A stretch of DNA of 33,040 bases from an uncultured delta proteobacterium (GTDB lineage Bacteria > Desulfobacterota > Syntrophorhabdia > Syntrophorhabdales > Syntrophorhabdaceae). The stretch's first letter is position 1. Each line of letters starts with the position of its first letter. Under the pieces are notes generated by a model. That model ran no database searches, was not told where the DNA came from, and saw only the letters and a list, made by a program, of their open reading frames with translations. Of this stretch, positions 3,264 to 33,040 are shown piece by piece. The stretch is taken from NCBI GenBank assembly GCA_903822335.1, contig CAIJOT010000008.1, positions 1 through 33,040 of the forward strand, in the 5' to 3' direction. The position numbers were made by a program, and so were the translations under genes.

Positions 3264-4519
3264 CGATGATTAGGAAAAACGACGGCAGGACAATAAAACT
3301 ACACTGTTCCTTTTGTGGAAAGAGCCAGGATGAAGTAAAAAAGCTGATTGCAGGTCCTATGGTGTATATCTGTGATGAATGCATAGATTTATGCAATGAG
3401 ATAATACAGGAAGAGGCTAAAAGAGAAAAGCTTGACTATATAAAAACTTCTATACCAAAGCCTCATGAGATCAGGAGACTTCTCGACGAGTTTGTCATTG
3501 GACAGGATTATGCGAAAAAAGTACTTTCCGTTGCTGTGTATAACCATTATAAGAGGATAGAGTCAAAAGCAAAATTTGATGATGTAGAGATACAGAAAAG
3601 TAATATTCTCCTTATCGGGCCCACAGGTTCTGGAAAGACACTGCTTGCCCAGACGTTAGCAAAACTGCTCCATGTACCCTTTACCATGGCAGATGCAACT
3701 ACATTGACAGAGGCAGGATATGTAGGCGAGGATGTAGAAAACATTATACTCTACCTGCTTCAAGCAGCCGATTACAATACAGAAAGAGCGGAGAGAGGTA
3801 TCGTGTACATTGATGAAATTGATAAGATATCAAGAAAGACCGATAGCCCGTCAATTACAAGAGATGTATCTGGAGAAGGCGTTCAACAGGCACTTTTAAA
3901 GATTATAGAGGGGACAATTGCGAATGTGCCGCCTAAAGGCGGGAGGAAACACCCACAGCAGGACTATATTAAAGTAGATACCTCTAACATACTTTTCATA
4001 TGTGGTGGGGCTTTCAATGGAGTAGATTCTATAATAGCCAACAGGATTGGTAAAAAAGGAATAGGTTTTGGAGTTGATGTAGTAGGTGGGAGAGATAAGC
4101 AGTATTCAGAGTTAATTAAGGATATCCAGCCAGAAGACCTTTTGAAATACGGATTTATACCTGAATTTATAGGGAGATTACCTATTATTGCTACCCTTGA
4201 GGAGTTAACCGAGGATAATCTTGTGGAGATTTTGAAGAGACCGAGGAATGCGATTGTAAAGCAGTACAAAAAACTTTTTGAACTGGAACATGTAACGCTC
4301 ACGTTTACTGAGGGTGCAATCAGGGGCATAGCACGAGAGGCAATGAAGAAAAAGACAGGTGCAAGGGGATTAAGATCCATGATGGAGAAGGTCATGCTGG
4401 ATGTGATGTATGAAATACCGGCCCTGTCGAATGTAAGAGAGTGTGTGGTCAGTGAAGAAGTGATAGTGAGCCATGAAAGACCTATATTGATCTATGAGGA
4501 AGAGGCTGAGATAGCCTGA
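3260..4519 (+). CDS. clpX: ATP-dependent Clp protease ATP-binding subunit ClpX
   Basis: 419 aa; N-terminal C4 zinc finger [19 protein letters not shown], Walker [20 protein letters not shown] overlap with clpP. Confidence 0.98.
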
Positions 4520-6909: not shown

Positions 6910-7705
6910 AAGGGTTTTTTTAAAAGAAGCCGTTCTCTCTGTTTTAAGCCAGGACTATAAAAATAAAGAAGTAATAGTTATTGATGATGGTTCTACTGAC
7001 AATTCCCACGATGAAATGAAAGGACTATCTGTTCAATACATATGGAAGGCAAATGAAGGGATAAGCCATGCACGCAATACGGGTATACAGGTTGCGAAGG
7101 GTGAATACATAGCTTTTCTCGATGTGGACGACCTCTGGCTGAAAGGTAAACTCTCACAACAGATAGAGTTGATGGAGGGGCAGGGATTTTCCATATCCTA
7201 TACGGACGAAATCTGGATAAGGAATGGAAAAAGATTAAATCAGCGAAAGAGACATAAAAAATACACGGGTTATATCTTTGAGCAGTGCCTGCCCCTCTGC
7301 ATTATAAGCCCATCCTCTGTTGTGATAAAAAGGGAGATATTTGATGATGTTGGTCTTTTTGACGAATCTTTGCCTGTATGTGAGGATTATGATATATGGC
7401 TCAGGATTTCTTCAAAATATCCAATCCTGTTTGTAGATAAGCCTTTGATCGTTAAGAGGGGTGGACACGAAGACCAGCTTTCGATAAGGTATGAAGGGAT
7501 TGACAGGTTCAGGATACAGAGTCTTTTGAAAATAGTGAATAGCGGCATGTTGGATAACGCTCAATATACCCAGGCCAAAGAAGAGTTAATAAAAAAATGC
7601 CAGATCTATGGAAACGGTGCAAAGAAAAGAGGCAAGGTGGAAGAAGCAGGGCACTATTTTGAACTTATCAAACACCTCAAACAGGAGAATAGGCAAGAAA
7701 GCTGA
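6878..7705 (+). CDS. Family 2 glycosyltransferase
   Basis: 275 aa; VSVVITTYNRRVFLKEAVLSVLSQDYKNKEVIVIDDGSTDNS, AFLDVDDLW, CEDYDIWLRIS. Overlaps the GH57 gene by 32 bp. Confidence 0.88.
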   Translation: MVSVVITTYNRRVFLKEAVLSVLSQDYKNKEVIVIDDGSTDNSHDEMKGLSVQYIWKANEGISHARNTGIQVAKGEYIAFLDVDDLWLKGKLSQQIELMEGQGFSISYTDEIWIRNGKRLNQRKRHKKYTGYIFEQCLPLCIISPSSVVIKREIFDDVGLFDESLPVCEDYDIWLRISSKYPILFVDKPLIVKRGGHEDQLSIRYEGIDRFRIQSLLKIVNSGMLDNAQYTQAKEELIKKCQIYGNGAKKRGKVEEAGHYFELIKHLKQENRQES

Positions 7706-7842
7706 ATAGATTCCCACGGGCAAACCCGTGGCACTGTTGATACATACGCTTCGCGTAAATAACGGAAGCATTCACCCACGTTAAAAAACGTGGTACTCTG
7801 CTGGTTTGCGTCGCCGGGTACCGTGGTATTACACGGGTGTTG
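7706..7842. repeat. Cluster of small REP-like palindromes
   Basis: Stems read directly: CCACGGG-CAAA-CCCGTGG (7714-7731), TACGC-TTC-GCGTA (7745-7757), CCACGTT-AAAA-AACGTGG (7776-7793), CCGTG-GTATTA-CACGG (7821-7836). Flanks recur as ATTC(A)CC...GTGGYAC. Confidence 0.75.
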
Positions 7843-8014
7843 GAATCTATCCAGCTTGCACAGCAAGCGAGAGGGGGAGGTTCCACAAGCTTTGCTTGGG
7901 GAGGGGGCGACGCAAGCCCCGGTATGAATCTATCCAGCTTGCACAGCAAGCGAGAGGGGGAGGTTCCACAAGCTTTGCTTGGGGAGGGGGCGACGCAAGC
8001 CCCGGTAATAGATT
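7843..8014 (+). repeat. Tandem pair of an 83-bp GC-rich repeat with AATCTAT ... ATAGATT ends
   Basis: GAATCTATCCAGCTTGCACAGCAAGCGAGAGGGGGAGGTTCCACAAGCTTTGCTTGGGGAGGGGGCGACGCAAGCCCCGGTA occurs at 7843 and again at 7926 without mismatch; a third, variant copy on the minus strand is at 27361-27474. Internal hairpins GCTTGC-ACA-GCAAGC and CAAGC-TTT-GCTTG. Confidence 0.93.
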
Positions 8015-27360: not shown

Positions 27361-27500
27361 AATCTATTATTCTATTACCGGGGCTTGCGCCTGTCCCCGT
27401 AAGGGGGTCCCCCCTCCCCAAGCAAAGCTTGTGGGGTCTCCCCCTCTCGCTCGCTGTGCAAGCTGGATAGATTCCCACGGGCTTGCCCGTGGGAATCTAT
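27361..27500 (-). repeat. Third, variant copy of the GC-rich repeat plus a 34-bp perfect palindrome
   Basis: Reverse complement of 27361-27474 matches GAATCTATCCAGCTTGCACAGC.AGCGAGAGGGGGAG..CCACAAGCTTTGCTTGGGGAGGGGG...GCAAGCCCCGGTA with an extra internal segment. ATAGATTCCCACGGGC-TT-GCCCGTGGGAATCTAT (27467-27500) has a 16-bp perfect stem. Confidence 0.93.
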
Positions 27501-27626
27501 TTTACGGTAACCTTTTAATAGTTATATATTGCTTCTCACTTATCATGTTGTCAAGTTTTTAATGAATACCCATAAGTGCTACTTCCCTGCTTTTTGTACT
27601 TATACAGAGTTTTAATTAAAAGAATT

Positions 27627-31859: not shown

Positions 31860-32717
31860 ATGAGTATAAAAACAATAGGTGTTTTAGGTGCTGGCACAAT
31901 GGGGAATGGCATAGCCCAGGTAGCAGCACAGGCAGGCTACAACGTTGTGATGAGGGATATTGAGGACAGATTTGTTGCAAATGGACTCAAAAATATCGAT
32001 AAGTTCCTTTCCAAGAGCGTTGAAAAGGGAAAGATGGCAGCCGATGTGAAGGATGGCATCATGGGAAGGATTAAGGGAACAACAAAGATGGAGGACTTAA
32101 AAGATGTTGATTATATTATTGAGGTTGTGCTTGAAGACATGGATCTGAAAAAGAAGGTTTTTAAGGAATTGGATGAGATCACAAAGAAAGAAGTGATACT
32201 CGCTTCAAATACCTCTTCAATGTCTCTTACAGAGATCGCTACAGTGGTAAGCAAGCCGGACAAAGTTGTGGGAATGCACTTTTTCAACCCAGTGCCACTC
32301 ATGAAGTTGGTAGAGGTAATTAGAGGCTATCATACGAGCGATGAAACAGTTGCAATCACAACAGAGCTTGCGAAGCAGATGGGCAAAGAAACTGTTGAAG
32401 TGAAGACAGATATACCCGGGTTCGTAGTGAACAGGTTGATGATTCCTCATATGGTGGAAGCAGTAAAACTCTATGAAGAAGGAATCGCATCGAAAGAAGA
32501 CATTGATAAAGCAGCGAAACTCGGTCTTAATTACCCTATGGGCCCCTTTGAACTTATGGATTTAACCGGGATTGACATAGCCATGCATGTGACGGACTAT
32601 TTTTACAAAGAACTGAACAAGGAAAGTAAATGGGCTGTGCCCCATACCATGAAAACACTGGTAAAGGCAGGTCGCCTTGGAAGAAAAACTGGTGGAGGAT
32701 GGTACGACTATAAGTAG
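31860..32717 (+). CDS. 3-hydroxybutyryl-CoA dehydrogenase
   Basis: 285 aa; IGVLGAGTMGNGIAQVAAQAGYNVVMRDI, ASNTSSMSLTEIA, GMHFFNPVPLMKLVEVI, GFVVNRLMIP. RBS aggaggtg. Confidence 0.96.
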   Translation: MSIKTIGVLGAGTMGNGIAQVAAQAGYNVVMRDIEDRFVANGLKNIDKFLSKSVEKGKMAADVKDGIMGRIKGTTKMEDLKDVDYIIEVVLEDMDLKKKVFKELDEITKKEVILASNTSSMSLTEIATVVSKPDKVVGMHFFNPVPLMKLVEVIRGYHTSDETVAITTELAKQMGKETVEVKTDIPGFVVNRLMIPHMVEAVKLYEEGIASKEDIDKAAKLGLNYPMGPFELMDLTGIDIAMHVTDYFYKELNKESKWAVPHTMKTLVKAGRLGRKTGGGWYDYK

Positions 32718-32726
32718 GGGTTAGTT

Positions 32727-32837
32727 ATGGCGTATGAGACGTTAATACTTGAGCAAGAAGAAGGGATAGCGATAGTTACATTGAACTTGATTATTCCCTG
32801 CAGCTTGCTGCAGGGTCAAGCAAGAAGTTTTTTGTAA
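32727..32837 (+). pseudogene. Truncated enoyl-CoA hydratase (crotonase) start interrupted by a palindrome pair
   Basis: MAYETLILEQEEGIAIVTLN is a canonical crotonase N-terminus; after codon 20 it runs into the palindrome (LIIPCSLLQGQARSFL*) and stops. Confidence 0.8.
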
Positions 32838-32877
32838 CAGAGGTTTCCCCTCTGATACCTTGTAGCTTGCTACAGGG
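32796..32877. repeat. Paired-palindrome (BIME-like) element
   Basis: CCCTGCAGC-TT-GCTGCAGGG (32796-32815) and CCTTGTAGC-TT-GCTACAGGG (32858-32877), with a small CAGAGG-TTTCC-CCTCTG hairpin (32838-32854) between. Confidence 0.9.
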
Positions 32878-32914
32878 AGGTTCATTAAAAAAATATTTAT
32901 AAGGAGGTACTTAC

Positions 32915-33040
32915 ATGAAAACTTTTACAAAGGCGTATATCCCTTACAATGGATACTATTCGACCCCCTTCTGCCGTTGGCAGGGCAGTATGCAGAATGA
33001 GAACTCGATTGAGTTAGGAGCAAAGACAGCGAGAAGATGG
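32915..33040 (+). CDS. Thiolase-family protein, N-terminus (runs off window)
   Basis: MKTFTKAYIPYNGYYSTPFCRWQGSMQNENSIELGAKTARRW; strong RBS aaggaggt; open to the window end. Confidence 0.7.
   Translation, partial: MKTFTKAYIPYNGYYSTPFCRWQGSMQNENSIELGAKTARRW

Follow-up and report, generated by a model that had tools for sequence, protein, structure and literature searches.

A PATE at an apparent crotonase gene deletion in an uncultured delta proteobacterium, and its likely parent transposon

Organization of the truncated crt locus

The window, i.e. the whole stretch of DNA analysed here (33,040 nucleotides), is the entire contig C8 of a draft genome of an uncultured delta proteobacterium (2.88 Mb, 342 contigs). 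Judged by hbd, its relatives are Syntrophorhabdaceae and Syntrophorhabdus-type metagenome-assembled genomes. The following features lie toward the right end of the window:

31860..32717, + strand: hbd, 3-hydroxybutyryl-CoA dehydrogenase gene, intact, 285 aa (best NCBIfam match PRK05808, E 1.8e-110, under that model's own cut-off)
32727..32786, + strand: crt remnant, 20 codons from the start of a crotonase (short-chain enoyl-CoA hydratase) gene (direct reading and alignment to a relative's crt)
32787..32886, + strand: 100-bp PATE, derived from an IS200/IS605-type element and reduced to its ends (repeat copies on C126 (82%), C257 and C212; copies in genomes G014, G012 and G007)
32796..32815, + strand: left-end hairpin CCCTGCAG-CTTG-CTGCAGGG, palindrome CCCTGCAGCTTGCTGCAGGG (sequence and folding)
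32838..32854, + strand: internal hairpin CAGAGG-TTTCC-CCTCTG (also present in the C126, G014 and G012 copies)
32858..32877, + strand: right-end hairpin CCTTGTAGCTTGCTACAGGG; next comes the right end itself, GGTTCATT, which ends at 32886 (sequence and folding)
32887..32914, + strand: native crt-thl spacer with ribosome-binding site (matches (TTTAAC)AAAATATTT...GGAGG of relatives)
32915..33040, + strand: thl, thiolase-family gene, first 42 codons up to the contig end (90% to the L026 thl over 42 aa)

The crt remnant starts with ATG at 32727, comprises codons MAYETLILEQEEGIAIVTLN and has its last base at 32786. Its final bases TTGAAC, which make up codons 19-20, directly precede the palindromic element, and the reading frame runs 16 codons further into the element before a stop is reached. 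Between the element end and the thl ATG, 28 bp (AAAAAAATATTTATAAGGAGGTACTTAC) carry a strong ribosome-binding site. The contig stops after 126 bases of thl, and the remainder of this gene is absent from the assembly. An earlier note on this DNA described a crt start cut to 20 codons at a palindrome pair between hbd and a thiolase gene, with a second hairpin ahead of the thiolase ribosome-binding-site region; direct reading of the sequence confirms both statements.

In relatives of the same family the order is hbd, full 260-aa crt and thiolase, and in L026, L035 and L042 the thiolase following crt is of the same kind as in the window. The distance from crt stop to thiolase is mostly 48-190 bp (more than 10 relatives). 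Since relatives keep an intact hbd-crt-thl arrangement at this place, the corresponding DNA is judged to be missing from the window, in total about 750-890 bp, of which about 720 bp belong to crt and 25-165 bp to the spacer. The 20 remaining residues align with MAYETIIVEREAPIGIIKLN-RPP of a relative's crt (L026) and with MAYDTLIVEKEEGIAIVKLN-RPP of the second crt of the same genome on C203, which places the break point immediately ahead of the conserved RPP. As far as sequence can tell, crt really does appear to be truncated by a deletion, and the earlier proposal of hbd-crt-thl as ancestral order is borne out by the intact crt of relatives. Equally, a 20-codon ORF of this kind with no crt ancestor was not seen among the relatives compared.

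The rest of crt had been said to be lacking on the other side of the element, and a tblastn search with a relative's crt indeed gave no match to it in the window. The continuation of crt beyond codon 20, for which the earlier note had suggested searching the genome, was not found on another contig either: the missing part is not among the nine crotonase matches of this genome, none of which starts near codon 21, and two contig-end crotonase pieces (C182 and C183) overlap and represent one other gene. The same genome harbours a second cluster, thl-hbd-crt, on C203 (L077, 2347-5288), in which hbd has a frameshift near 4300 that breaks it in two and crt is intact. In one relative (L109, G031:C259) thl follows closely after hbd with no crt between them, i.e. 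crt is missing here in another lineage too.

The palindrome pair as part of a PATE

The element opens with TTGATTATT and closes with GGTTCATT. These ends are not inverted repeats, and the palindromes are located near the termini. In single-stranded state the element folds far better than shuffled sequences (z -3.8, 0/200), and with its 100 bp it is too short to encode a transposase. Its boundary is uncertain by 1 nt, since it can be read as TTGATT...TTCATT or as the same shifted 1 nt left; the shift gives back a histidine conserved in IS30 relatives, and the unshifted boundary agrees with conservation of the right end. The palindrome had been taken for a scar of the deletion. This holds in so far as the element fills the deletion exactly; the palindrome itself is the left hairpin of a dispersed 100-bp element and not a stand-alone scar. 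Both palindromes recognized earlier were recovered, and the middle hairpin (32838-32854) is to be added to them. A structured RNA of the Rfam kind was also considered and dropped, as no Rfam family matched 32600-33040 at E up to 1.

Searching the genome with this region revealed about four close copies in all. A second ends-only copy of the whole stretch (about 100 bp, 82% identity) is present on C126, and a 47-bp copy with a single hairpin on C257. On C212 the same left-end and right-end hairpins are found 536 bp apart and flank a Y1_Tnp gene; the ends of the window element are 87% (left) and 92% (right) identical to them. This gene of 158 codons encodes a Y1 transposase of the IS200/IS605 family (PF01797, E 1.7e-33; NCBIfam transpos_IS200, 125 bits versus a cut-off of 55), with IS608 TnpA among its solved relatives. 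Assignment to REP/RAYT systems was ruled out, because the partner transposase is recognized as an IS200 enzyme and, with REP_Tyr_transpos, reaches only 27.8 bits (cut-off 80). Among 396 genomes scanned across the phylum, close 100-bp copies were detected in other genera of the family, clear ones in G014 and G012 and a more diverged one in G007, and more distant genomes contain longer relatives sharing the left end of the element. Segment identities to the C126, G014, G012 and G007 copies were uninformative as to whether the window copy is a mosaic with its left half from one copy and its right half from another.

On C212, the element lies inside a gene for an IS30-type transposase and disrupts it. 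When the 536 bp are removed, the IS30 frame is as long as in the uninterrupted copy on C171 and in the homologue of G029; hence this insertion was clean, with target DNA neither duplicated nor lost. C212 is the sole copy that permits such a before/after comparison, the window copy having no downstream target DNA left. The family gives no support to the earlier suggestion of a DNA-replacing element: elsewhere its members are an IS200/IS605-type transposon and copies derived from it that retain only the ends. A novel replacing element was dropped as default reading since the testable copy inserted cleanly. Pieces of IS30-type transposase genes also occur at contig ends in this genome (C224, C225, C171 and C212) and are one likely cause of assembly fragmentation.

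Ends common to a Y1 transposon, dispersed copies, a fixed target (see below) and the occurrence of a single-palindrome form mark the palindrome pair as a PATE. It derives from an IS200/IS605-family transposon of which the ends alone are left, is not autonomous, and has a likely parent in the same genome. The family is new but built of known parts, PATE itself being a known kind of element.

Other palindromic repeats were encountered as well. A larger second family in this genome (L055-L067, on 13 contigs; 13 copies read, about 17 matches) comprises palindromic elements of about 90-130 bp that end in GATACCCCGTGGCTTGCCGCGGGGTAGTTCATTTC and are kin to the window element through the right end; another of the genome's Y1 transposases possibly mobilises them. 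A separate family within the window (7843-8007 and 27410-27501) has an 82-bp unit, CAGCTTGCACAGCAAGCGAGAGGGGGAGGTTCC..., arranged as a tandem pair plus one inverted unit about 19 kb off. Beside these units lies a shorter repeat, whose arms are CCCACGGG-CCCGTGG (7699-7731 and 27460-27492).

Target motif and the loss of crt

The motif TT[AGT]AAC is located ahead of the left end in 16 of 17 genuine insertions inspected, a count in which AAC belonged to the search pattern and the leading T residues did not. Codons 19-20 of crt, TTG AAC, fit this target. Of all positions in the window, about 0.15% match TTNAAC. The right flank of the window element reads AAAAAAATATTTATAAGGAGG. At the corresponding place, the spacer has TTTAAC followed by AAAATATTT in L041 and L042 as well as L094 (nearly so in L163), read as TTTAAC-AAAATATTTAGGAGG, and TTAAAC followed by AAAATTATAAGGAGG in L026. 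The target motif of the relatives' spacer thus sits 0-3 nt from the window junction, for which we estimate a chance probability of roughly 1-3% from base and motif frequencies. An exact AAC at the right junction looked decisive at first; this was downgraded to a position within 3 nt, since the simplest ungapped alignment sets window AAA over AAC of the relatives, and the motif then ends 3 nt downstream of the junction.

Insertion of the PATE explains the left junction only, the testable copy being clean, and a separate event is therefore needed for the loss of crt. Because of the target motif within 0-3 nt of the right junction, we prefer an account in which two copies inserted in the same orientation, and it is moderately probable that a PATE inserted in crt and that a second copy and recombination then removed the gene. 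A single-strand transposase of the Y1 (HUH) type, for instance that of C212, would mobilise the element in trans. One copy would land in crt directly 3' of TTGAAC and another, in the same orientation, at TTNAAC in the crt-thl spacer; recombination between the two, or slippage at replication, would then remove about 750-890 bp of crt and spacer, with one copy remaining at the junction. For the second insertion with the recombination step taken by itself, we consider the chances about even. Both ends of the element adjoin the deletion exactly, which an unrelated earlier deletion would not predict. Several points speak against this account. With about four close copies in the genome, there is little prior likelihood of two within about 850 bp, except in the case of local hopping, and the 3-nt offset in the ungapped alignment weakens the case for a target in the spacer. 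No conspecific strains were seen in the collections searched, and hence none with one or both copies at this locus.

The junction expected from two insertions is also predicted by two other routes. The assembly itself might have collapsed. In the true genome, crt would then still have its remaining part and, in addition, one or two PATE copies; the assembler would have jumped between copies and dropped a piece of about 800 bp as a short contig. Such elements are short repeats, the draft is split into 342 contigs, and this one ends 126 bp into thl with the rest of the gene missing, so that the junction could be of this origin and the deletion not real. Nevertheless, the assembly contains no second near-identical copy (best 82%) and no crt fragment starting near codon 21, and we regard a collapse as unlikely. 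Slightly less probable still is a deletion made by the transposase, in which a Y1 enzyme would join the right end of the element to a second cleaved target, TTNAAC in the spacer, instead of the crt continuation, and remove the intervening DNA in one step, either during a single insertion or in a later incomplete excision. That an IS200/IS605-type transposase could in this way swap the DNA between two same-strand TTNAAC sites for the 100-bp element, a deletion-coupled insertion, is accordingly a doubtful proposition. It would account for junctions at, or no more than 3 nt from, target-like motifs and, needing one insertion only, would suit the low copy number; the Haloquadratum authors, moreover, noted a mobile element at the start or end of indels in several cases (PMC3119063). 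On the contrary, the lone testable copy is a clean insertion, and our literature search gave no direct demonstration of adjacent deletions by Y1 transposases.

Least probable of all, in our judgement, is an ordinary deletion that took crt first and was followed by insertion of the element into the scar, since the later insertion must have struck the deletion junction exactly by coincidence. This order of events gains from the probable dispensability of crt, which we base on the second thl-hbd-crt cluster on C203 and on the relative G031 with thl directly after hbd. On balance, the loss of crt is probably a side effect of recombination between two such elements and less likely an assembly gap. 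The locus is made up of known parts, with a gene deletion at one copy, and a DNA-replacing element is not needed to account for it.

In an uncultured lineage, this work documents a PATE family along with the transposon that is its likely parent, and it provides a clear case of a PATE sitting at a gene deletion. If the transposase did delete crt in one step, a genome-trimming outcome would be added to the well-studied mechanism of single-strand transposition. Otherwise, the locus is a case of ordinary genome decay that the second crt has probably made tolerable.

Relation to known systems

REPs and BIMEs associated with TnpA-REP (RAYT) are likewise dispersed palindromes processed by a Y1 enzyme. 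In contrast to them, the copies read here lack a GTAG/GTGG guide on the 5' side of the hairpin foot; the bases ahead of the window hairpins are TGATTATT and TTTGATA. Another related system is the IS200 group of the IS200/IS605 family (tnpA only), which the 536-bp C212 parent resembles in having a Y1 tnpA between end hairpins and in inserting 3' of a short fixed target. Unlike members of this group, the window copy is without tnpA and is predicted to depend on a transposase supplied in trans. The target TTNAAC also differs from those of IS608 (TTAC) and ISDra2 (TTGAT).

The closest counterparts are PATEs, which were defined in Haloquadratum walsbyi, including single-palindrome, core-deleted forms (PMC3119063), and PATE-like elements have been reported in Halanaerobium (PMC7290912). 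Like the Haloquadratum elements, the one described here is short and transposase-free, is without terminal inverted repeats, and has near-terminal palindromes matching the ends of a Y1 transposon; insertion with no target duplication is likewise seen for the parent copy on C212, and the 47-bp copy on C257 is comparable to the core-deleted form (PMC3119063). It differs from them in being bacterial, in possessing a third, internal hairpin and in its position at a gene deletion.
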